NCBI RefSeq assembly: GCF_030406325.1
Contig: NZ_JAUEQY010000005.1
Location: 248,001-312,000 of the forward strand
Length of the DNA stretch: 64,000 nt
Source of the DNA: Actinomadura sp. DC4
Lineage (GTDB): Bacteria; Actinomycetota; Actinomycetes; Streptosporangiales; Streptosporangiaceae
Direction: 5' to 3'
Notes under the pieces: model-generated
Told to the model about the DNA's origin: nothing
Databases searched by the model: none
What the model saw: only the letters and a program-made list of their open reading frames with translations
Made by a program: the position numbers and the translations under genes
In this document: one piece after another, positions 2 to 54,324 of the stretch
Numbering within the stretch: the first letter of the stretch is position 1
Layout of the letters: every line of letters starts with the position of its first letter

Positions 2-3000
2 GAGGGGCTCGGCCTCGTGCTCCTCGAACGCCTCTCCGACGCGCGTCGCAACGGCCATCCCGTGCTCGCCCTCCTCCGCGGCTCGGCGATGAACTCCGAC
101 GGCGCCTCCAACGGCCTGACCGCCCCGAACGGCCCGTCGCAGCGGCGCGTGATCGGCCAGGCCCTGGCCGGCGCGGGCCTGACCCCAGGCGACATCGACG
201 CGGTCGAGGCGCACGGCACCGGCACCACGCTCGGCGACCCGATCGAGGCGACCGCGCTGCTGGAGGTCTTCGGCGCCGGCCGTACGGAGGACCGGCCGCT
301 GTGGCTGGGCTCGATCAAGTCGAACATCGGCCACACCCAGTTCGCCGCCGGCGCGGCCGGGGTGATCAAGATGGTGATGGCCTTCCGGCACGGCCTGCTG
401 CCCAAGACACTGCACGCCGAGACGCCCTCGCCGCACGTCGACTGGTCCGCCGCGCCCGTACGGCTCCTGACCGAGCCGGTGCCGTGGGAGGCGAACGGGC
501 GTCCGCGCCGGGCCGGGGTGTCCTCCTTCGGCATCAGCGGCACGAACGCGCACGTCATCCTGGAAGCGCCGCCCGCCGAGCCCGGTGCCTCGATTGAGGC
601 CGGCGCCGGCGGTCCCCTGCCGTGGGTGCTGTCCGCCGCGACCCCGGCGGCGCTGCGCGACCAGGCCGCCCGCCTGCTCGCGCACCTGGACGAGCACCCC
701 GACCTGCGTCCCGCCGACGTCGGCCACACGCTGGCGACGGCACGGGCTTCGCTGGAGCACCGCGCGGCGGTCGTGGCCGCCGACGCCGAGGGCCTCCGCG
801 CCGGGCTCGGCACGCTCGCGGCGGACGACGCCGCGGACTCCGTCGTCACCGGCGTCGCCGTGGACGCCGACCGGGTGGTGTTCGTCTTCCCCGGCCAGGG
901 CGCGCAGTGGAAGGGCATGGCGGTCGAGCTGCTCGACTCCGCGCCCGTGTTCGCCGGGCGGATGCGCGAGTGCGACGAGGTCCTGCGGTCGATGGCGGAC
1001 TGGTCGCTGCTCTCCGTTCTGCGCGGCGAACCCGGCGCGCCCGATATGGACCTCATCGAGATCGTCCAGCCGGTCCTGTTCGCGGTGATGGTGTCGCTGG
1101 CCGAGCTGTGGCGCTCCTATGGCGTACGGCCCGCGGCCGTGGTCGGCAGCTCGCAGGGCGAGGTCGCGGCGGCGTGCGTCGCGGGCGCGCTGTCCCTCGG
1201 CGACGCGATGCGGATCATCGTCGTAAGGAGCCTGCTGTTCGCCGAGACGCTCGTCGGCAACGGCGCGGTGGCCTCGGTGGTGCTCCCGGCCGCCGAGGTG
1301 GAGGCCCGCCTGGCCCCGTACGAGGACAGGCTCGGGCTGGCCGGGCGCAACGGGCCAAGGCTGGTCTCGGTCGCCGGAGAGCAGGCCGCGCTGGAGGAGT
1401 TCACCGCCGCCTGCGCGGCCGACGGCGTACGGGCCCGGATCGTGCCCTCGACCGTCGCGTCGCACTGCGCCCAGGTCGACCCGCTGCGCGAGCGGCTGCT
1501 CTCCTCGCTCGGCGAGGTACGGGCCCGGTCCACGGACGTGCCGTTCTACTCGACGGTGACCGGCACGCTGATCGACACGGCCGAGCTCGGCACGGACTAC
1601 TGGTTCTGGAACGCACGCGAGCCGGTCGACTTCGAGGGCGCGGTGCGCGCGCTGCTCGCCGACGGCTACCAGGCGTTCGTCGAGCCGAGCGCCCATCCCA
1701 TCCTGGCCATGGCCGTGGCGCAGGTCGCCGACGACGCCGGGGCGCGGGTCTGCGCCGTGGGCTCGCTGCGCCGGGGCGAGGGCGGGCTGGACCGGTTCCT
1801 GGTCTCTCTCGCCGAGGCGCACGTGCAGGGCGTGGCCCTCGACTGGGCGGCGGTCTTCGCCGGCCACAGCCCTCGTCGCGTCGCGCTGCCGACCTACGCC
1901 TTCCAGCGGCGCCGCTACTGGCTGTCGAGCGCGCGCCTCACGACCGCGCCCGCGCCCGCGTTTGTGGAGGAGCCGGCGGAGGACCTCACCGGGCTGCCCG
2001 ATGCCGAAGGCACGCGCGCCCTGGTCCGCCGGCACGCGGCGGCCGTCCTCGGCTACGAGTCCGAGGACGAGGTGCCGGACGAGCGGGCGTTCAAGGAGCT
2101 CGGCCTGGACTCGATGACCGCCGTACGGCTCCGCGACCGGCTGGCCGCCGCGACCGGCCGGCGGCTGCCCGCGACCGCCGTCTTCGACCACCCGACCGTC
2201 GAGGCGCTCGCCCGGCACCTGCTCGGCGAGGACGCCCCCGCCGCGGCCGTCCCGGAGGCGCTTGCGACCGACGAGCCCATTGCGATCGTGTCGATGACCT
2301 GCCGCTTCCCCGGTGGCGTGTCCTCGCCGGAGGACCTGTGGCGGCTCGTCGCCGAGGGCCGCAGCGCGGTCACGCCGTTCCCCGAGGACCGCGGCTGGGA
2401 CCTGGAGGCGATCTACGACCCCGAGCCGGGCCGTCCGGGCAAGTCCTACGTGCGGGAGAGCGGGTTCCTCGACGGGGTCGACCTGTTCGACGCCGACTTC
2501 TTCGGCATCAGCCCGCGCGAGGCGCAGGGCATGGACCCGCAGCAGCGGCTGCTGCTGCACTCGGCGTGGGAACTGCTCGAACGGGCCGGCCTGGACCCGG
2601 CGTCGCTGCGCGGCAGCCGTACGGGCGTGTTCGCGGCGACCAGCGGCCAGGACTACACCGCGCTGATGGCCGGGATGGACGGCGCCGACGACTTCCTGAT
2701 CACCGGCGGCTCGGCGAGCGTGCTGTCCGGGCGCATCGCGTACGCCTTCGGCCTGGAGGGGCCCGCGGTCACGGTCGACACGGCCTGCTCGTCCTCGCTG
2801 GTCGCGCTGCACCTGGCCTGCCAGTCGCTGCGCCACGGCGAGTGCTCCCTGGCGCTCGCGGGCGGTGCGGCGATCCTCGCGACCCCGGCCGCGTTCGTCG
2901 CCTTCAGCCGCCAGCGCGGCCTGGCGCCCGACGGGCGATGCAAGCCGTTCGCAGCCGCCGCGGACGGCACGGCGTGGTCGGAGGGGGTCGGCCTGCTGCT

Positions 3001-6000
3001 GCTCGAACGCCTCTCCGACGCCGAGCGCAACGGCCATCAGGTGCACGCCGTGATCCGCGGCTCGGCGATCAACTCCGACGGCGCCTCCAACGGGCTGTCC
3101 GCTCCCAGCGGCCCCGCGCAGCAGCGGGTGATCCGCGCCGCGCTGGCGAGCGCCGGGCTCTCCGCTCGCGAGGTGGACGTCGTCGAGGCGCACGGCACCG
3201 GGACCCGGCTGGGCGACCCGATCGAGGCGCACGCGCTGCTGGCCACGTACGGGCAGGACCGCGAGGGGCCGCTCTGGCTGGGGTCGCTGAAGTCCAACAT
3301 CGGGCACACGCAGGGCGTCTCGGGGCTGGCCGGCGTGGTCAAGATGGTGATGGCGATGCGGAACGGGGTGCTGCCGCGCACCCTCAACGTGGACGCGCCG
3401 TCGCCGGACGTCGACTGGTCCGCCGGCGACGTCCGGCTCCTCACCTCGGAGGTGCCCTGGGAGGCGAACGGCCACCCGCGCCGCGCGGGCGTCTCCTCGT
3501 TCGGCGTCAGCGGTACGAACGCGCACGTCATCGTCGAGCAACCGCCGGTTCTCCCCCCGCCCTCGCCGGCCTCGCCGGGCGAGGGGCCGGTGCCGTGGAC
3601 GCTGTCGGCCAAGACCGAGGAGGCGCTGCGCGCCCAGGCCGCCCGGCTGCGTTCGCACGTGTCCTCGGAGCGTCCGGCGGACGTGGGGTTCTCACTGGCG
3701 ACCACGCGGTCCTCGTTGGCGCATCGCGCGGTGCTGGTCGGGTCCGCTCAGGAGTCGTTCCGGCGCGGGCTGGACGCGCTCGCGCTCGGCGGGTCCCACC
3801 CCGGCCTGGTCCGTGGAGTGGCGCGGCGGCCGGGCGGGCTGGCGCTCCTGTTCGCCGGGCAGGGGGCGCAGCGGGCGGGCATGGGACACGAGCTGTACGA
3901 CACCTACTCGGTGTTCGCGACGGCGTTCGACGAGGCGTGCGCGGCCGTCGACGCCCACCTCGACGAACCGGTACGCGACGTCGTCTTCGCCGCCGGCGAG
4001 TCACTGTCCCGGACGGTGTTCGCCCAGGCGAGCCTGTTCGCGTACGAGGTCGCGTCGTACCGGCTGCTGCGGTCGTTCGGGCTGCGCCCCGGCCACCTGC
4101 TGGGCCACTCGATCGGCGAACTCGCCGCCGCGCACGTGTCCGGCGTGCTGTCGCTGGAGGACGCGGGCACGCTGGTCGCGGCGCGCGGCCGGCTGATGCA
4201 GGCGCTGCCGCCCGGCGGGGCGATGGTGGCCCTGGCGGTGTCGGAGGAGGAGACGGTCGCGTCGCTGGTCCCGGGCGTGGCGCTCGCCGCCGTCAACGGC
4301 CCGGCGGCCACGGTGATCTCCGGTCCGGAGGACGCGGTGCTGAGCCTCGCCTCGGAATGGAGCGCGCGGGGGCGGCGCACGAAACGGCTGCCGGTCGGCC
4401 ACGCCTTCCACTCACCCGCGATGGACCCGATGCTGGCGGCTTTCGGCGAGGTCGCCGAGGGTCTGACGTTCGCCGCACCGCGCATCCCGATCGTGTCGAA
4501 CGTCACCGGTGACCTGGCCACCGAGGAACAGCTCCGCTCGCCCGCGTACTGGGTGGACCACGTCCGCCGGTCGGTGCGCTTTCTCTCCGGCGTACGGTGC
4601 CTGGCCGACCAGGGCGTACGGAACTTCCTGGACGTCGGCCCGGACGGGGCGCTGGCCGCGGCGACGCGGGAGTGCCTGGACGGCGCCCTGCCCGCGGACA
4701 CCTCGACCGTGTTCGCGCCGGTGTCCCGCCGCGACCGGCCGGAGAACGAGACGCTGCTCACGGCACTGGGCCGCCTGCACGCGCGGGGCGTCGAGGTCGA
4801 CTGGACCCCGGTCTTCTCCCGCCACCGGCCACGCCGGGTCGACCTGCCGACCTACGCCTTCCAGCCGAAGAGCTACTGGCTCCGTACGCCGGCCGCCGCA
4901 TCGGCTTCCGCATCGGCCACCGCGTCTGCCTCCGTACCGGCCACCAGGCCGCCCGCCGTGCCGGCCAACGTCCCAGCTCCGGCCTCCACCTCCGCTTCGA
5001 CCCCACCCCCCGCCACCACCCGGGGCAGCGCTTCCGGCCTGGGCGGCGCCGCCACCCCGGGCCGACCTTCCGCCCCCGCGCCTACCTCGGCTCCCGCTCC
5101 CACCTGTGCTCCCCCCGCCCTCCCCACCTCCGCCGAGGCGGGGCCGCCGGACGCCGCGCGCCGGGACCTGGCCGGCCTCTCCCCGAAGGAGCGTCGGGCC
5201 GAGCTGCTGGGCCTGGTCTCCACCCACGTGGCCGCCGTACTCGGGCACGAGACCGCCGGCGGCCTGGACGCCGACCGGGCGTTCACGGAGCTGGGCTTCG
5301 ACTCCCTCACCGCCTCCGAGCTGGCCGAACGGCTCGGCACCGCCGTCGGGCGGCGGCTGCCGACGGTCGCCGTGTTCGACCACCGCACCTCGGCGGAGCT
5401 GGCCGCCCACCTCGACACGCTCGTGCTGACCGAGGCCGTCACCCAGCAGGGGGAGCCCGCGATCGGCGGCGGGTTCAGCGCGATGTTCGGGCGGGCCATC
5501 GAGCTGGGCAAGTCCAACGAGTTCATGGACTTCCTGGACGTGGCGTCCCGCTTCCGCCGCGACTTCACCGCCGAGACCGACCTCCCGCCCGAGGAGCCGG
5601 TACGCGTCACGAACGGCGACCGGGCGCCCGCGATCGTGTGCGTCCCGGGCTTCATCGGGATGCCGGGCCCGCAGCAGTTCACGAGGTTCGCCGCGAGTTT
5701 CCGCGACGAGCACGAGGTGTCGGTGCTCAGGCATCCCGGTTTCGTCGCGGGGGAGCCGCTGCCCGCCGACATAGACGCCGCCGTACGGCTGCACGCGCGG
5801 ACCCTGCTGTCCCGGTACGGCGAGACGCCGTTCGTACTGGTCGGGCTCTCCTCGGGCGGCCTGGTGGCGCAGACGCTGGCGGCGCATCTGGAGGGCCTCG
5901 GCGTCACCCCGGCCGGGGTGGTGCTGCTCGACACGTTCGGCCCGCACCTGGACCACATCGTCGAGGACCTGATCCCGGAGTTCGCGTCCCGCCTGTACGA

Positions 6001-6280
6001 CGCCCACGTGGAGATGGGCTACGGGGCCGAGGACGACTGGCTGACCGCGATGGGGCGCTATGTGGCGTTCCCGTGGAAGGTCCACGACCTCGCGGCGCCG
6101 ATCCTCATGCTCCGGGCGACCGAGCCGCTGGTCGAGTGGACCCGCGACGACGACTGGCGTACGAGCTGGCACGACGCCGAGACCACGGTGGACGTACCCG
6201 GCGACCACTTCAGCATGATGGGCGAGCACGCGGACACCACCGCGCGAGCGGTACGTGACTGGCTCCGCCGCCTCTTCTAA
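2..6280 (+). CDS. type I modular polyketide synthase, final two modules with thioesterase (5' partial)
   Basis: The reading frame is open from base 2, so the gene starts before the window. Domains in order, residues counted from base 2: C-terminal part of a ketosynthase (HGTGT and SNIGHTQ motifs, 1-190); acyltransferase (FPGQGAQ 295, active-site context GSSQGE near 381, VASH near 484); ACP (LGLDS near 704); complete KS (DTACSSS near 926); second AT (FAGQGAQ 1283, GHSIG 1367, HAFH 1467); a Pro/Ala/Ser/Thr-rich linker about 1630-1720; ACP (LGFDS near 1766); thioesterase (GLSSGG near 1947, GDHF near 2066). No KR, DH or ER fits between either AT and its ACP. HAFH is the malonyl signature; VASH resembles the methylmalonyl YASH class. 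The enzyme should perform the last two extensions, leave both beta-keto groups and release the chain. Odd point: the first AT has Ser where GHSQG usually has His. Confidence 0.97.
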
Positions 6281-6300
6281 TGATCGAAAGGAAGATCGAA

Positions 6301-7479
6301 ATGGAACCAGTGACGATGCCGACCGAACGGACCACCCCGTTCGACCCGCCCGAGGAACTCCGCCGGCTTCGCGAGCAGAACCCGGTGACACCCCTCCGCT
6401 ATCCGGACGGCCACATCGGCTGGCTGGTCACGGGGCACGCCGCGGCCCGTACGGTGCTGTCCGACCCGGCGTTCAGCGCCCGCCTCGAACTCAAACGCCT
6501 GCCCGTGGGGCCGCCCGCCGACCCGGACCAGGTGCAGCCGGCTCCTCCGGGCTACTTCCTGGCGATGGACCCCCCGGACCACACGCGCTACCGCCGCCTC
6601 CTGGGCGGCCGTTTCACCCCACGCCGCATGCGGGCCCTCGAGTCGGGCATCGAGGCGATCATCACGGACCAGCTGGACGAGATGGAAAAACTCGGCGCCC
6701 CCGCCGACCTGGTGGAACGCTTCGCCCTCCCGGTGCCGTCACGGGTGATGTGCGAGCTGCTGGGCGTCCCGTACGAGGACCGCGCCCATTTCCAGAGCAT
6801 CTCCGGGGCCTTGATGGGCTTCGACGTGGCGAAGATGCAGGAGGCGTACGTCGGGATCAACGAGTACCTGTACGGCCTGGTCCAGCGCAAACGCGCCGAG
6901 ACCACCGACGACCTCCTCGGCGAGCTGGTCGCGCAGACCGACCTGGACGACGTGGAACTCACGAGCATCGGCTTCCTGCTGCTGATCGCCGGTTTCGAGA
7001 CCAGCGCGAACATGCTCGGCATCGGCACGTTCGCCCTGCTGACCGCCCCGGACCAGCTCGCCGCGGTGCGCGCCGACCCGGACCTGATGCCGGACGCGGT
7101 GGAGGAACTGCTGCGCTACCTGGCGATCCCGCAGTACGGCCTGACCCGTACGGCCGTGAAGGACGTGGAGGTGGAAGGCCAGACGATCAGGGAAGGCGAG
7201 GTGGTGACGGTGTCGATCCCGGCCGCCAACCGCGACCCGAAACGCTATCCGGACCCGGACCGCCTGGACGTGACCCGTTCGGCCACGGGCCACGTGACGT
7301 TCGGCCACGGCATCCACCAGTGCATCGGCCAGGCGCTGGCAATGCTGGAAATGCGCCTCGGCTTCACCGCCCTGTTCGACCGCTTCCCGAACCTGCGGCT
7401 GGCCGTCCCGGCCGAGGAGGTCGAGATGCGAGCGGCCAGCCAGATCTACGGGGTGCACAGCCTGCCCGTCGAGTGGTGA
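6301..7479 (+). CDS. cytochrome P450, polyketide tailoring candidate
   Basis: A 392-residue soluble bacterial P450. The heme-ligand loop FGHGIHQCIG places the cysteine at residue 341, and the I-helix oxygen-activation motif reads AGFETS near 230, with Glu in place of the common Asp. An ATG at 6280 overlaps the PKS stop (TAATG), but the ATG at 6301 has AAAGGAAG at a good distance, so 6301 is preferred; either way the gene is coupled to the PKS. It probably oxidises the released polyketide. It needs a ferredoxin and reductase, and none is encoded nearby. Family assignment is firm; the substrate is inferred from context. Confidence 0.95.
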   Translation: MEPVTMPTERTTPFDPPEELRRLREQNPVTPLRYPDGHIGWLVTGHAAARTVLSDPAFSARLELKRLPVGPPADPDQVQPAPPGYFLAMDPPDHTRYRRLLGGRFTPRRMRALESGIEAIITDQLDEMEKLGAPADLVERFALPVPSRVMCELLGVPYEDRAHFQSISGALMGFDVAKMQEAYVGINEYLYGLVQRKRAETTDDLLGELVAQTDLDDVELTSIGFLLLIAGFETSANMLGIGTFALLTAPDQLAAVRADPDLMPDAVEELLRYLAIPQYGLTRTAVKDVEVEGQTIREGEVVTVSIPAANRDPKRYPDPDRLDVTRSATGHVTFGHGIHQCIGQALAMLEMRLGFTALFDRFPNLRLAVPAEEVEMRAASQIYGVHSLPVEW

Positions 7480-8939: not shown

Positions 8940-9527
8940 CTAACGCCCGGTGGGCTTGGCGCGTACGTGCAGGCGTTCGCCCTGGGGGCCGAACAGGCTC
9001 AGGAACTCCACCGGTTCGGCGTCCGCGTTCACCATCGCGTGCGGGATGTGCGTGTCGAACTCGGCGGCCTCCCCCGCGGTCAGGACCAGGTCGTGCTCTC
9101 CCAGAAGCAACCGCAGCCGGCCGGACAGGACGTACAGCCACTCGTATCCCTCGTGAGCGCGCTGGTCCGGCTTGGCGAGCGGGGCGTTGCCGCCGGGCAG
9201 GATCTGCTTGTACGCGCGCAGCGCGCCGAGCTGGTTCGTCAGCGGGATGTACGTCACGCCGCAGCGCGTGAACGGGCGCGCGTGGATGCGGGGATCGCCG
9301 GTCGCGGGCGCGCCGACGAGCTCGTCGAGCTGTACGCCGTGCGCCTTGGCCAGCGGAAGCAGGAGTTCGAGCGTCGGCTTGCGCTGACCGGCCTCCAGCC
9401 GGGACAGCGTGCTCAGCGAGATGCCGGTCATCTCGCTGAGCCGGGCGAGCGTCGTGCCGTGCTCCCGGCGCAGCGCCTTCAGCCTCGGCCCGACTCCGGT
9501 CAGCACGCTCGCGATGTCCTCGCTCAT
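8940..9527 (-). CDS. XRE-family regulator with C-terminal cupin domain
   Basis: 195 residues. Residues 12-67 are a Cro/CI helix-turn-helix (RLSEMTGISLSTLSRLEAGQ), and residues about 105-185 are a cupin barrel (YEWLYVLSGRLRLLLGEHDL, then EAAEFDTHIPHA). This is the MerR/SutR-like class of one-component regulators in which a small ligand or metal binds the cupin. It is divergent from the flavoprotein at 9593; the 65-base gap holds palindromes, so that gene is its likely target, with autoregulation. An upstream in-frame ATG at 9563 would add twelve residues that lie inside the putative operator, so 9527 is preferred. Confidence 0.9.
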   Translation of the reverse strand: MSEDIASVLTGVGPRLKALRREHGTTLARLSEMTGISLSTLSRLEAGQRKPTLELLLPLAKAHGVQLDELVGAPATGDPRIHARPFTRCGVTYIPLTNQLGALRAYKQILPGGNAPLAKPDQRAHEGYEWLYVLSGRLRLLLGEHDLVLTAGEAAEFDTHIPHAMVNADAEPVEFLSLFGPQGERLHVRAKPTGR

Positions 9528-9592: not shown

Positions 9593-10588
9593 ATGACAGC
9601 GAAGACGCACTACGAAGTCGTGATCATCGGCGGTGGCGCGGCCGGCCTGAGCGGCGCGCTCACCCTCTCCCGCGCCCGCCGCGAGGTCCTGGTGATCGAC
9701 GCCGGCCGGCCGCGTAACGCCCCGGCCGGACACGTCCACACATACCTCTCCAACGAGGGCATCCCACCCGCCGAGCTCCTCGCCAACGGCCGCCGGGAGG
9801 TGACCGGGTACGGCGGCGAGATCGTCACCGGTACGGTGACCGCGGTCGAGCGTACGGACGAGGGGTTCCGCGTCGCGCTCGGCGACGGCACCACCGTCAC
9901 GGCGGACCGCCTCCTGGTCACCACCGGGCTCGTCGACGAACTTCCGGACGTTCCCGGCCTCGATGAGCGCTGGGGGCGCGACGTCCTGCACTGCCCGTAC
10001 TGCCACGGCTGGGAGGTACGCGACCAGGCGATCGTCGTCCTGGCCACCGGGCCGATGGCCGTCCACCAGGCCCTGCTCTGGCGGCAGTGGAGCAAGGACA
10101 TCACGCTCCTCACCGCGGAACCCCTGGAAGACGACACCCGGCTCGCCGCCCGCGAGATCCGGATCGCGGTGGGACGGGCGACCTGCCTGGAAATCGTGGA
10201 AGACCGGCTCACCGGCGTACGGCTCGACACCGGCGACGTGGTCCCGTGCGACGCCCTGACGACGACCACCCGCCTGACCGCCCGCGCCGAGCTGCTCGCC
10301 GGCCTCGGCCTGGAGCCGACGGAGCAGCGGATGGGCGAGCACGTGGTCGGCACCTACATCGCCGCGGACCCGTTGGGTGCGACGGAGGCCCCCGGAGTGT
10401 GGGTGGCCGGAAACGTGGCCGCCCCGTTCGACCAGGTCATCGGCTCGGCCGCCGCGGGCGTACGGGCCGGGGCCGCCATCAACGCCGACCTCATCGCCGA
10501 GGAGACCCGGCGTGCCGTCGCGGAGAGGGAACAGGCGCTGAGCCGGGAACCCCAGGACGCGCGGTACGGCGAGGAAGACGCGCGATGA
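9593..10588 (+). CDS. NAD(P)/FAD-dependent oxidoreductase, thioredoxin-reductase-like
   Basis: 331 residues. The N-terminal FAD Rossmann motif is IIGGGAAGLSGALTLSRA, and the mid-protein redox pair CPYC (HCPYCHGWE near residue 128) sits where thioredoxin reductases carry CxxC. The closing FAD motif is GVWVAGNVAAPFDQVIGSAA. This subfamily is widespread in actinomycetes beside XRE-cupin regulators; the electron acceptor is unknown. The C-terminal 16 residues (LSREPQDARYGEEDAR) do not belong to the fold: they are a copy of the repeat that leads into the methyltransferase at 10808. The stop overlaps the next ATG as ATGA. Confidence 0.92.
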   Translation: MTAKTHYEVVIIGGGAAGLSGALTLSRARREVLVIDAGRPRNAPAGHVHTYLSNEGIPPAELLANGRREVTGYGGEIVTGTVTAVERTDEGFRVALGDGTTVTADRLLVTTGLVDELPDVPGLDERWGRDVLHCPYCHGWEVRDQAIVVLATGPMAVHQALLWRQWSKDITLLTAEPLEDDTRLAAREIRIAVGRATCLEIVEDRLTGVRLDTGDVVPCDALTTTTRLTARAELLAGLGLEPTEQRMGEHVVGTYIAADPLGATEAPGVWVAGNVAAPFDQVIGSAAAGVRAGAAINADLIAEETRRAVAEREQALSREPQDARYGEEDAR

Positions 10589-10807
10589 GCCGGAGCAGCG
10601 GGACGCGCGGTCCGGCGAACGGACGCGCGATGCGCGGCGGGCATGGACGCCCGGTACGGCAAGGGAGACGCGCGCGGCGAACAGCGACCGCGATACCGCG
10701 AAGGAAGCCCGCGATGAGTCGGCGACCGTGGGACGCGCGGTACCGCGAAGGAGACGCATCATGATCCAGCGACCGTGGGACCTGCGACAGCGCGAAGGAA
10801 GCCCGCG
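10538..10807 (+). repeat. tandem array of about 47-bp units copied from the methyltransferase 5' end
   Basis: Six units precede the true methyltransferase start, beginning at 10538, 10585, 10630, 10675, 10714 and 10761 (lengths 47, 45, 45, 39, 47, 47). Each resembles the start of the gene at 10808: ATGAGYC, then codons for P/L-W-D-A-R-Y-R-E, then a purine-rich GAAGGAAG-like stretch. The last two full units keep a ribosome-binding site, an ATG and an overlapping ATGA junction. The first unit has become the C-terminus of the upstream flavoprotein. Units 2-4 are diverged and unit 4 is shortened. Confidence 0.9.
10585..10764 (+). CDS. repeat-derived mini-ORF 1, 59 codons
   Basis: It begins at the ATG that overlaps the flavoprotein stop (ATGA at 10585-10588) and runs through four repeat units to a TGA at 10762-10764 that overlaps the next ATG. 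The N-terminal part is very Arg/Ala/Gly-rich, as expected of a diverged repeat. The last 16 codons (from the internal ATG at 10714, preceded by GAAGGAAG) encode MSRRPWDARYREGDAS, close to the methyltransferase N-terminus. It may serve only to carry ribosomes forward by coupling. Whether a stable peptide is made is unknown. Confidence 0.45.
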   Translation: MSRSSGTRGPANGRAMRGGHGRPVRQGRRARRTATAIPRRKPAMSRRPWDARYREGDAS

Positions 10808-10811
10808 ATGA
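10761..10811 (+). CDS. repeat-derived mini-ORF 2, 16 residues
   Basis: It encodes MIQRPWDLRQREGSPR. The ATG overlaps the stop of the preceding mini-ORF, and its TGA (10809-10811) overlaps the methyltransferase ATG at 10808, so both ends are ATGA junctions. GAAGGAAG near its 3' end is the ribosome-binding site for the methyltransferase. A coupling leader is the likely role; a peptide function is unsupported. Confidence 0.45.
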   Translation: MIQRPWDLRQREGSPR

Positions 10812-11419
10812 GCCAGGAGCTGTGGGACGCGCGGTACCGCGAGAGCGACCGCGTCTGGAGCGGACGTCCCAACGACGCACTGGTCCGCGAGGTGGCCGCC
10901 CTGACCCCGGGCAGCGCCCTCGACCTGGGCTGCGGCGAGGGCGGCGACGCGATCTGGCTCGCTGGAAAGGGCTGGCGCGTGACCGCGGTCGACATCTCCG
11001 CCGTCGCCCTCGAACGCGCCGCCCGCCACGCCGCCACCGAGGGCGTCGCCGGCCGCATCGACTGGCAGCGGCACGACCTCGCCACCTCGTTCCCCGCCGG
11101 CGAGTACGACCTGGTCTCGGCCCATTTCCTGCATTCCCCCGGCGAACTCCCGCGAGAGGAGATCCTGCGCACGGCGGCCGACGCCGTCGCACGCGGCGGA
11201 GTCCTCCTGATCGTCGGCCACGCGGGCCTCCCGCCGTGGGAGGAGCACGCCCACGGCGACGTGCACCTGCCGACGCCTCAAGAAGTGCTGGAAGACCTGG
11301 CTCTCCCCGAAGGAGAGTGGGAGGTCCAGGTCGCCGAAGAGCACGAACGCACCCAGACCGCTCCCGACGGGCAGACCGTCACCCGTACCGACAACACCCT
11401 CAGGCTCCGACGCCTCTGA
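10808..11419 (+). CDS. class I SAM-dependent methyltransferase
   Basis: 203 residues. SAM-binding motif I is ALDLGCGEGGDAIWLA near residue 37, followed by VDIS (motif II acidic residue) and a hydrophobic strand YDLVSAHFLHS. The family-typical N-terminus LWDARYRESDRVWSG is the source of the upstream repeats, which supports the start at 10808 with GAAGGAAG before it. It resembles TehB/thiopurine-type small-molecule methyltransferases; the substrate is unknown. It is the last gene of a coupled unit with the flavoprotein, which suggests a shared detoxification or redox role (inference). Confidence 0.9.
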   Translation: MSQELWDARYRESDRVWSGRPNDALVREVAALTPGSALDLGCGEGGDAIWLAGKGWRVTAVDISAVALERAARHAATEGVAGRIDWQRHDLATSFPAGEYDLVSAHFLHSPGELPREEILRTAADAVARGGVLLIVGHAGLPPWEEHAHGDVHLPTPQEVLEDLALPEGEWEVQVAEEHERTQTAPDGQTVTRTDNTLRLRRL

Positions 11420-51782: not shown

Positions 51783-52016
51783 CTACGTCTGATCACCTCG
51801 CCGCTCGTAGTCGGACAGGTCGGCGTTCAACGCGGCCAGCTGGCCCTCGATGGAGGCGCGCTGAAGTTCCAGCACATAGGCGTCCTGGTCGTGCGGGTCG
51901 AATTCGCCCCCGGCGCCTGCCGGCATCTTGTCGTCGCGAACCAACCGGTCAAGTCCCCTGGCGAGCAGTTCCCGCTGCCGTAGCGTGGACTGATGCTCGT
52001 CATCATTTTGAATCAT
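51783..52016 (-). CDS. small coiled-coil partner of the papain/NTase protein
   Basis: 77 residues, strongly charged. The C-terminal half (YVLELQRASIEGQLAALNAD) has coiled-coil heptad spacing; the N-terminal part (STLRQRELLARGLDRLVRDD) is helical. Its ATG at 52016 lies inside the last codons of the large gene that ends at 52003 (14-base overlap), so it is translated after it from one message. Small coiled-coil proteins overlapping a larger effector-like gene are often immunity or antitoxin partners. This is inference from arrangement. Confidence 0.7.
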   Translation of the reverse strand: MIQNDDEHQSTLRQRELLARGLDRLVRDDKMPAGAGGEFDPHDQDAYVLELQRASIEGQLAALNADLSDYERRGDQT

Positions 52017-54324
52017 GAGACACCTCGGGTAGCCAGTTCGCCGGCACCATCACGGTGACCTCGATGCATGACCGGCGACCATCGGCGTCTACGACGCAGT
52101 TCGCGCTGGAAAGCCATTCGAGGCCGTCGTGTCCGACGTCGATGTGCGGCCCGATCGTTTCGACCGCCGCTGCCGACTGGAGCCAGTCGATTCCATGCCG
52201 CACGCGGGGCACGGGCATTCTCTCGGGCTCGATGGATCTGACCGGAATCTCGTCGGCGTCGCGCAGGGCGCGTAGCGGGCCGACGCGAACCGACTCGACT
52301 CCCTCTTGTGGGGTCAGGTACAGCGCGTCGTTGTGGATGTGCGTTCGATAGGCGGGCAGCTCGGTTCCCGTGTGGCGCCGCCTCAGCGCTTGGACCAGGA
52401 CATCGCCATTGGCAACGAGCCCGACCCAGCCGCTGTCGGCACGCAACACCACCACGCGTGATGTTTCGTCGACGTTGACGAAGTCGGAACCGTGCCTCCT
52501 CCACCCGGTCACCGATATCCGTACCCCGTCCGGCAGAACAATCCCACCGGTGGCATCGACCACGTACCCGAAGGACCCTTGGGAGGCCCCCAGGGCAGGC
52601 ATTCCGGCGGCCTGTGCCGGGGAGAACGAACGCTCGAACAGCCAAGAAGGCGCGGCGGCCTTCCCCGGCCGATCGGGGGCATCGAGTGGATCGTCGTGCA
52701 GCTCCCGCGTCACCAGCGATGGCATCGCCTCGCCCGACAAGCGCCGCCGCCAGTCGAACCACGAACCACGCTCGGTGACCTCGACCACGATCGGATGACC
52801 CACCGGCCACCGCAACGCCACCGGATCGTCTCCACGTGCCGCACCTGGAACCCAGCCCCGCCTCTGCCAGCGCGGAGCGGGCACGACGACGGCCGGCGCC
52901 CAAACGACCTGCGGATGGGCGACCGGCATATGCACCACCTGCGGATGTACCACCACCGGCATGGGCACGACCTGCGGATGTATCACCGGCATGGGTACGA
53001 ACTGCGGGTGTGCCACCGGCGGAGGAGGCTGCGCGGCGACCCTCCGGGACGGAAGGGGCGGCAGCGTTCTCAGATCGAGGCGAACGACTCCCTTCCGGCC
53101 CCCCGTCCTGTCTCGCTGGAAGAATTTGCGGAGTGTGCCGTTGGAGTCCACCAGCAACTCGCCACCATATTTTGCCTTCTGCTCTTCACGGCCGGTTCTG
53201 AGATCCTCCGGGTCTCGCAACACGGGATCGACCGCGGCCAGGTTGACACCGCGAGGCTCCCAAGCGCCGTCGTAGTCATTCGGATGATTTTTCGCGGTGA
53301 CGAAACTCCCGTCGAGCCACAGATGCATCAGGCCGGCGTAGTACAGGTTCGTCGCCGCCGCGTGCAATCCCGCGAGTAGGGCGTTTCGATGCGGCGTCCC
53401 ACCGAATCGCCGCGCGACGGTGGACCACGACGCGCGATATTCCCCCGGAGGCAGTTTACCGTTGCGCTGGAAAGGCGGGATCCAGTCTTTGCGCCAGAGC
53501 GCGGCGACACGACTCAGATTGATGATCCCGGCGATACGAGGGTCGAAGGGATCGGTGAGGGCATCTACGACCGAGCCCGACCGGCCACCGGGGAGAGGTT
53601 CGCGCGGTTGCCCGATGACACCGTCAGGGCCGATGGTCAGGGCACGCGCGCCGATGAGTGCGGGCATGGCGGTCTCGACCTCATCCGGCCGGGGCGCGGG
53701 AGCCACCTCCACGTCGTCGGCCGAACGAGGGTCGATAATCTGCACACCCTCGACCGTGTCGATGAGCGCGACGGCGTGCCGGTGGCCACCTGGTCGCCCG
53801 AGCACGACGATTACCGTTCCGCCGGCGGGCACCTGATGGGTCAACGTGCGCCATGAGGTGGCCTCTCCCCATTGGTCCGCGGGCACGTTCAGGTGTCGTC
53901 GTCCGACAGCCGATCCGATCAGCAGGTCATCGGCCCACGAGTTTCGGTGGACGCCCCCCGGGAACAGCCGCCGTATCAATTCGCTGATCATGATCAGACA
54001 CACCTGGAACTCATCGCCAGGCAGTTGCCGACCGAATTCCTTCACATCACCGATCAGCCGATTCAGCTCAGGTAGAGAACGGCCGGCTCCGTCCGGGGTG
54101 AATCGCACGAGACCATCGGAACCGGTGATCACGCGGCCGGGCGCGGCCTGCACGCACATGGTGTCGCCACCGATGCGGCACCGGACGGATTCACGCCACC
54201 CGTCGAAATCATGAGCCAAGCCATCCTCCTCCAGCGATGTCTTCCGCGTATCGTCGGTCGGCCGACTCGAGGTCGCCGGGGACGCGACGGTGGGACATGC
54301 CCGGCTCAGCAGACCTTCGCGCAT
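52003..54324 (-). CDS. papain-like (glutamine-deamidase-type) plus DUF6932-like nucleotidyltransferase fusion
   Basis: 773 residues. A papain-like domain about 85-210 has candidate catalytic Cys109 (DEFQVCLIMISELIRRLFPG), His183 (GGHRHAVALIDT) and Asp198 (IIDPRS), as in toxin glutamine-deamidase/PTG-type domains. Residues 281-420 match a DUF6932-like nucleotidyltransferase fold: LDGSF at 337-341 and D350/D352 (NDYDGAW) give the GS-x-DxD pattern, then KAKYGGEL and KGVVRLDL. Residues 437-475 are repeats of HPQVV-PMPV. A C-terminal 280-residue beta-rich part is unrecognised. There is no signal peptide. The start at 54324 is uncertain. Confidence 0.75.
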   Translation of the reverse strand: MREGLLSRACPTVASPATSSRPTDDTRKTSLEEDGLAHDFDGWRESVRCRIGGDTMCVQAAPGRVITGSDGLVRFTPDGAGRSLPELNRLIGDVKEFGRQLPGDEFQVCLIMISELIRRLFPGGVHRNSWADDLLIGSAVGRRHLNVPADQWGEATSWRTLTHQVPAGGTVIVVLGRPGGHRHAVALIDTVEGVQIIDPRSADDVEVAPAPRPDEVETAMPALIGARALTIGPDGVIGQPREPLPGGRSGSVVDALTDPFDPRIAGIINLSRVAALWRKDWIPPFQRNGKLPPGEYRASWSTVARRFGGTPHRNALLAGLHAAATNLYYAGLMHLWLDGSFVTAKNHPNDYDGAWEPRGVNLAAVDPVLRDPEDLRTGREEQKAKYGGELLVDSNGTLRKFFQRDRTGGRKGVVRLDLRTLPPLPSRRVAAQPPPPVAHPQFVPMPVIHPQVVPMPVVVHPQVVHMPVAHPQVVWAPAVVVPAPRWQRRGWVPGAARGDDPVALRWPVGHPIVVEVTERGSWFDWRRRLSGEAMPSLVTRELHDDPLDAPDRPGKAAAPSWLFERSFSPAQAAGMPALGASQGSFGYVVDATGGIVLPDGVRISVTGWRRHGSDFVNVDETSRVVVLRADSGWVGLVANGDVLVQALRRRHTGTELPAYRTHIHNDALYLTPQEGVESVRVGPLRALRDADEIPVRSIEPERMPVPRVRHGIDWLQSAAAVETIGPHIDVGHDGLEWLSSANCVVDADGRRSCIEVTVMVPANWLPEVSHDSK

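Follow-up and report, generated by a model that had tools for sequence, protein, structure and literature searches.

In the window, a 64,000-nt stretch of a contig from the soil actinobacterium Actinomadura sp. DC4, the junction between the genes of an HlmI/DepH-like flavoprotein and a class I methyltransferase carries a tandem array whose units copy the ATGA junction of this gene pair. We hold it probable, at roughly 0.6, that the array is a tandem duplication of the junction which the reading frames permitted and the cell tolerated, and along which ribosomes would re-initiate stepwise. The features of the region are as follows.

9593..10588, plus strand: flavoprotein gene, 331 aa, Pyr_redox_2, CPYC motif, HlmI/DepH-like dithiol oxidase family (family and PDB sequence matches)
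10538..10585, plus strand: probable oldest unit and former methyltransferase start (CTGAGCC), now the last 16 flavoprotein codons, in the methyltransferase frame (alignment, moderate support)
10555..10842, plus strand: tandem array, period about 47 nt, 6.4 copies; ATG or former ATG at 10538, 10585, 10630, about 10672 (lost), 10714, 10761 and 10808
10571..10577, plus strand: Shine-Dalgarno-like GAGGAAG before 10585, -6.5 kcal/mol
10585..10764, plus strand: mini-ORF 1, 59 aa; its start overlaps the flavoprotein stop (ATGA) and its stop overlaps ATG 10761
10643..10717, plus strand: alternative mini-ORF, 24 aa, closing on ATG 10714 (ATGA); weak Shine-Dalgarno at its start (-2.0)
10701..10707, plus strand: Shine-Dalgarno-like AAGGAAG before 10714, -6.5 kcal/mol
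10714..10764, plus strand: internal in-frame start of mini-ORF 1, with a 16-aa product MSRRPWDARYREGDAS (open reading frame)
10748..10753, plus strand: Shine-Dalgarno-like AAGGAG before 10761, -9.6 kcal/mol
10761..10811, plus strand: mini-ORF 2, 16 aa; its start overlaps the mini-ORF 1 stop and its stop overlaps the methyltransferase ATG 10808 by 4 nt
10795..10801, plus strand: Shine-Dalgarno-like AAGGAAG before 10808, -6.5 kcal/mol
10808..11419, plus strand: class I SAM methyltransferase gene, 203 aa (family and PDB sequence matches)

The array and its reading frames

TRF detected the array at 10555-10842 with a period of 47, 6.4 copies and a score of 194, and reported the same region also as a row of 94-nt period with a score of 220. 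The best of 500 dinucleotide shuffles of positions 10300-11100 (801 bases) scored 83, and any row with a period of at least 20 and a score of at least 30 appeared in 23 of the 500. The ATG or former-ATG positions read CTGA at 10538, ATGA at 10585 and ATGC at 10630; the unit at about 10672 has lost its ATG, and positions 10714, 10761 and 10808 again read ATGA. The spacings from ATG to ATG along the array are 47, 45, 84 (two shortened units), 47 and 47, and identity among the internal units is 68-79% for the first three and 66-78% for the last three. The initial annotation had described six units of about 47 bases before the methyltransferase, each with a ribosome-binding-site-like stretch, ATGAGYC and codons for W-D-A-R-Y-R-E. 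The array proved real, with about six diverged units, but the spacings of 45 and 84 mean that they are not all of 47 nt or of a length of 2 modulo 3. Similarly, Shine-Dalgarno-like stretches were found before 10585, 10714, 10761 and 10808, whereas ATGA is absent from two of the six units (10630 and about 10672), and W-D-A-R-Y-R-E is intact solely in the 10731 unit and in the methyltransferase gene itself, the other units reading DARYGEE or WDLRQRE or being frame-shifted.

The stop of the flavoprotein gene (TGA, 10586-10588) overlaps ATG 10585, and the stop/start overlap (ATGA) that characterizes termination-reinitiation pairs is present at 10585, 10761 and 10808. A chain running from the flavoprotein through mini-ORFs to the methyltransferase, as first proposed, is thus borne out at these three overlaps, but not at 10714, which is an in-frame start inside the 59-aa ORF with no frame of its own. 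A Shine-Dalgarno energy of -6 or lower was also obtained at 14.8% of 3000 random positions, and two relatives in the genus have stronger Shine-Dalgarno stretches than the array, with energies of -11.4 and -11.7.

The flavoprotein matched Pyr_redox_2 with an E value of 1.2e-21, and the CPYC in its translation corresponds to the CXXC of the TrxB-like family. Its best solved relatives were 4ntd (E 3.6e-71), DepH (4nte/4jn9, 2e-44) and GliT (4ntc, 1.6e-22), with 3fbs, an unnamed oxidoreductase, ranking second overall (8.6e-50). The entry 4ntd is labelled as a thioredoxin reductase in the structure listing; we take it to be HlmI. For the methyltransferase, the best solved relative was Slr1183 (1.4e-13), with weaker matches to thiol methyltransferases (7.1e-7) and to a TPMT model (7.7e-9). 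HlmI, DepH and GliT are described as dithiol oxidases for disulfide natural products (PMC3826145, PMC11317636), and a holomycin producer without hlmI is reported to form S-methylated intermediates (PMC3826145). In view of this effect of losing hlmI, an oxidase paired with an S-methyltransferase, as in the window, would make sense for the detoxification of dithiols. The flavoprotein of the window, for which dithiol oxidation is putative and read from the sequence, differs from HlmI, DepH and GliT by its pairing, often as a fusion, with a methyltransferase. An XRE-cupin regulator gene (8940-9527, minus strand) lies divergent from the flavoprotein gene.

The junction in relatives and the proposed origin

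We classified the junctions of 46 flavoprotein-methyltransferase pairs, the window included, all of them loci with an upstream flavoprotein. Twelve locus names had been left out beforehand, comprising ten copies of others, L015 with a decayed flavoprotein and L018 with a distant, far-lying one. The two genes formed one fused frame in 28 pairs, were spaced without overlap in 10, were counted as a -4 overlap in 7 and were separated by the array in one; among the seven overlaps, those of L036, L088 and L089 rest on a GTG although a later ATG is the likelier start, and that of L115 has two ATGs, while the label of L118 is unsure owing to a stop at the W codon. These states were scattered on the tree, with at least 15 changes as compared with a mean of 16.6 after shuffling, a value as low being reached in 28 of 200 shuffles. 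The window, G003, G006 (both ATGA) and G004 (a fused ORF) formed one set of four rows with an SH-aLRT of 98 in a quick tree, a value that supports the set and not the branching inside it. The ATGA junctions of G003 and G006 have no array. Among the seven other members of the genus, the remaining ones were more remote: G007 has a fused pair and G001 an unfused, more distant one, G005 has its best flavoprotein and methyltransferase matches on separate contigs, and G002 has no close flavoprotein.

Some further observations were made at these loci. A fused flavoprotein-methyltransferase frame is common across Actinomycetota (L004, L007, L014, L025, L030 and others, 28/46), and such frequent fusion suggests a combined dithiol oxidase and S-methyltransferase. 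In L118 (Streptomyces carminius) the conserved W codon of the methyltransferase is replaced by TAG; either this gene may be broken or its sequence may have been read wrong. In L015 (G011), the flavoprotein match ahead of the methyltransferase covers just query residues 7-42, a short piece that represents a decayed partner gene.

The old junction can be aligned with the C-terminal 16 codons of the flavoprotein (10538-10585), in which CTGAGCC replaces the ATGAGCC of the methyltransferase gene's own start. The likeness of positions 10508-10554 to the other units is just 49-55%, which weakens the case for this copy, although 10514-10579 are 68% identical to a unit pair. As compared with G006 and G003, 8 or 5 nt, respectively, are missing before the old stop of the flavoprotein, as judged from one alignment of four sequences. 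Such a loss places the flavoprotein in the methyltransferase frame through the first copy, as in the natural fusions, until the TGA of the next copy. The proposal that the first copy has become the last 16 residues of the flavoprotein was thus borne out with moderate support, and together with the likeness of the units to the start of the methyltransferase gene this alignment supports an origin of the array from that gene's own start.

To explore the frame arithmetic of such an origin in silico, we simulated the duplication of every 30-65-nt segment across the natural ATGA of G006 (L005) and G003 (L002). Duplications of a length of 2 modulo 3 gave a coupled chain with one mini-ORF in 487/498 cases for L005 and 482/498 for L002 (969/996 in total), as compared with 0/486 for each locus (0/972) when the length was 1 modulo 3. 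In duplications of 0 modulo 3 (474 for each locus) both ATGs fall in one frame by arithmetic, and these were labelled as N-terminal extensions from length alone. Gain or loss of each of the window's four inter-ATG segments in turn left the chain intact every time (8/8), the number of mini-ORFs then being one to three. Both the expectation that a duplication of 2 modulo 3 re-creates the stop-start coupling and the expectation that this coupling survives changes in copy number therefore held in the simulations. Since the rule follows from the code alone, selection is not needed for it, and a founding duplication is 2 modulo 3 by chance in about one case in three.

We therefore propose the following course of events, in which the ancestral state, re-initiation in the cell and tolerance rather than selection are what we infer. 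The ancestral junction would have been an ordinary -4 overlap (ATGA) of the flavoprotein and methyltransferase genes, as in G003 and G006. A 47-nt segment across it would have been duplicated in tandem and then multiplied, and each intact copy (47 being 2 modulo 3) would have become a mini-cistron, with its ATG at the stop of the previous frame and the next Shine-Dalgarno stretch in its last codons, closed by the TGA of the next copy. A terminating ribosome may then re-initiate stepwise, through the flavoprotein, the 59-aa ORF, the 16-aa ORF and finally the methyltransferase. Since neither the proteins nor their coupling are lost through it, the duplication would have been tolerated, and the copy number would be free to change without breaking either gene. 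With later divergence, two copies would have lost their ATGA, and the first copy would have been absorbed into the C-terminus of the flavoprotein after a small deletion shifted the latter into the methyltransferase frame. The array was seen in one genome, and neither its spread nor a change in copy number was observed. As a seed for the duplication, we also considered microhomology between the last flavoprotein codons and the first methyltransferase codons, which lie 47 nt apart in G006; this candidate was rejected, as the self-matches were no better than chance (893/1000 shuffles as good for L005 and 221/1000 for L002).

Selection and the rival readings

The initial annotation had suggested that the array could tune downstream expression or emit short peptides. 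Neither found support, as no sound selection test was significant. Over all six units, the Shine-Dalgarno and ATGA columns were not conserved above the other columns (p 0.34). In the four ATGA-bearing units, the Shine-Dalgarno columns were 0.83 identical as compared with 0.64 elsewhere, with a p value of 0.098 (6 of 33 blocks as good). An apparent selection signal of p 0.01 (13/1482 blocks) was rejected as circular, since the units had been chosen for their ATGA; it is the test without those columns that gave 0.098. As a selected control device the array is unproven, and tuning is possible. The specific proposal that the copy number of the units sets the methyltransferase:flavoprotein ratio draws on the Shine-Dalgarno difference and on the chain being kept in 8/8 simulated copy-number changes. 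We regard it as doubtful, in view of the non-significance of that difference, the circularity of its stronger version and the result that no second genome with the array was seen among 102 other junctions and in a pattern search of 341 family genomes. A still weaker case can be made for functional short peptides. Open frames of 59, 24 and 16 aa exist, but the unit peptide is not kept, WDARYRE being whole in one internal unit and frame-shifted or changed in the others, and the array is absent from the 102 other junctions, making this reading very improbable.

A plainer alternative is that the array is a decaying duplication and nothing else, with mini-ORFs that are hardly translated and a methyltransferase that starts alone at 10808, where it has a Shine-Dalgarno stretch of its own. 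In a rough simulation of neutral decay, with perfect and independent units and assumed non-zero rates, the full chain was kept in 12-25% of runs with the flavoprotein in its observed frame, and in 23-37% with the flavoprotein entering from any frame; retention of ATGA in at least four of six units has a probability of 0.158 under independent loss. These values, the six-unit conservation result and the 10/46 pairs that are spaced without overlap all agree with such a relic. Against it stand the unbroken chain of -4 overlaps, with a Shine-Dalgarno-like stretch at every step, and the coupling reported from measurements on several overlaps in E. coli, with bioBF apparently an exception (PMC6728339). 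We consider this alternative rather unlikely, although it deserves more weight than any of the other rivals. The array might instead be a DNA or RNA control element, such as a repeated operator, an internal promoter or a structured leader. The perfect 12-nt palindrome CGCGGTACCGCG occurs in it twice, at 10736 and 10830, and for senX3-regX3, a region that bears MIRUs (mycobacterial interspersed repetitive units), the ability to drive regX3 alone is reported (PMC4213456), so that such a repeat could hold a promoter. However, the palindrome consists of the A-R-Y-R-E codons and is imperfect in the remaining units, the RNA fold had a z-score of 0.27 (58/100 shuffles as stable), the single Rfam row was for a miRNA family, with an E value of 0.56 and a score far short of the gathering one, and a scan limited to sigma-70-type promoters and terminators found no match of either kind. 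A control element of this sort therefore appears as improbable as functional peptides. We prefer the tolerated duplication with stepwise re-initiation set out above.

Known coupled repeats and repeats at other loci

MIRUs lie at many loci of one genome, as their name also implies. A 2025 review describes them as apparently mobile elements whose insertion at start codons couples their own ORF at -4 nt to the gene that follows (PMC12548453). The MIRUs of senX3-regX3 are tandem units of 77 and 53 bp (PMC4213456), both of which are 2 modulo 3 by our arithmetic, and they vary in copy number, with two or three 77-bp repeats reported (PMC9392950). The initial belief that no class of this kind had been described was thus mistaken, as MIRUs are already on record as repeats with a -4-coupled ORF (PMC12548453) and a variable copy number (PMC9392950). 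The array of the window resembles them in having short tandem repeats between co-directed genes, with mini-ORF 10761-10811 overlapping ATG 10808 by 4 nt. Three of its spacings are 47 nt (2 modulo 3), and those of 45 and 84 belong to its decayed stretch. It differs in the source of its unit, which is the start of the downstream gene itself, and in its distribution, since a search of the 10.67-Mb assembly found it once, not dispersed or mobile at many loci. The array would work by the coupling logic of MIRUs, yet we do not file it as a MIRU.

Two further systems are comparable. Termination-reinitiation at ATGA is described for -4 overlaps with a Shine-Dalgarno inside the upstream frame (PMC6728339). 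Such pairs have one overlap and two genes, whereas the window has three overlaps chained through two mini-ORFs, with a coupling that is predicted from the letters. In bicistronic designs and upstream non-functional ORF boosters, a short upstream ORF with an internal RBS near its stop is reported to raise translation of the gene (PMC13255528); these are engineered and single, whereas the array is natural, serial and made by duplication. Among the matches listed in a literature search, no paper treated genes with a tandemly duplicated ATGA start of their own as a class. The array offers a clear natural example of how a duplication, owing to its length modulo 3, can leave two genes and the coupling between them intact, and it suggests a way for MIRU-like coupled repeats to begin at an unremarkable gene junction. 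Since relatives have this junction fused, overlapping or spaced, the case also bears on the origin of bacterial gene fusions and splits. A bolder extension, which we think unlikely, is that tandem duplication of 2 modulo 3 across ATGA might quite generally turn fused genes into split ones, and reversibly so; a fusion holding ATGA at the old start would become two coupled cistrons, and further copies would form a heritable, copy-number-variable relay, in effect a home-made MIRU. In keeping with this reading, the flavoprotein frame of the window does run on into the first copy as in a fusion, and the next copy ends it. The practical weight of the array is modest unless its coupling or copy change proves to matter.

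We searched for such arrays elsewhere. TRF was run on 103 of 107 distinct methyltransferase junctions, the window included, after L069, L079, L110 and L140 had been dropped for too little upstream DNA; none of the 102 other junctions, in a sample in which over half of the 103 had no flavoprotein match upstream, carried such an array. One search of the window's own 10.67-Mb assembly gave a single convincing match to the array. A candidate second copy, L142 (E 6.7e-5), was rejected as a chance match inside an unrelated 939-aa ORF, and further matches had E values of 0.06 or worse. Of 341 family genomes, 37, including that of the window, had a match to a degenerate two-unit pattern, and about 47 had one to its reversed control, so the matches elsewhere are at chance level. 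No second array was recognised by its letters among the matches listed for this pattern, which is strict in codon choice.

A scan of 1.88 Mb of the same genome (94 stretches, about 18% of the assembly, window included) yielded 51 arrays with a period of at least 20 and a score of at least 80, the periods of which were 0 modulo 3 in 45 and 1 or 2 modulo 3 in three each. Pairs of xTGA one period apart with open frames on both sides were flagged in L201, L257 and L195, all 0 modulo 3; the window's own array (L250) was seen as the 94-nt row and went unflagged, as an array escapes the filter when its highest-scoring row has a multiple of the unit as its period, and the sample is not exhaustive. In 80 loci of relatives (0.50 Mb), 23 such arrays were found, 14 of 0, seven of 2 and two of 1 modulo 3, indicating that lengths of 2 modulo 3 are not rare as such; no flag was present among the two rows listed.

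At a score of at least 70, an array lay close upstream of the W codon in 7/103 loci (window included), as compared with 1/103 in 360 nt within the gene and 0/103 in its first 130 nt. The corresponding numbers were 12/103, 6/103 and 2/103 at a score of at least 50, and 15/103, 14/103 (whole control) and 6/103 at a score of at least 40; the apparent repeat-proneness of the junction thus depends on a cut-off picked after the rows were seen. The other six arrays scoring at least 70 have periods of 12, 18, 18, 18, 30 and 27/18, all 0 modulo 3, and five of the six lie in open frames as linkers or N-termini; L094 lies in a fused frame. A lower-scoring exception to this trend is L015, with a period of 14. 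Coding repeats at this junction thus keep the frame, and the 47-nt unit of the window is the single strong case of 2 modulo 3. In L023, the start of a related methyltransferase itself, ATGAGCACCACCGAT, is duplicated in tandem over 15 nt and in frame (MSTTDMSTTD; copies at 1462 and 1477, reverse strand), and this is the 0 modulo 3 counterpart of the window's case.

Two minor observations were made elsewhere in the window. A 30-nt repeat with 3.8 copies at 52904-53023, within the minus-strand ORF 52003-54324, encodes HPQVVPMPV-like repeats and looks like an ordinary coding repeat. At 6278-6282, a polyketide synthase-like ORF (17-6280) and a P450-like ORF (6280-7479), both named by eye, share one base (TAATG).
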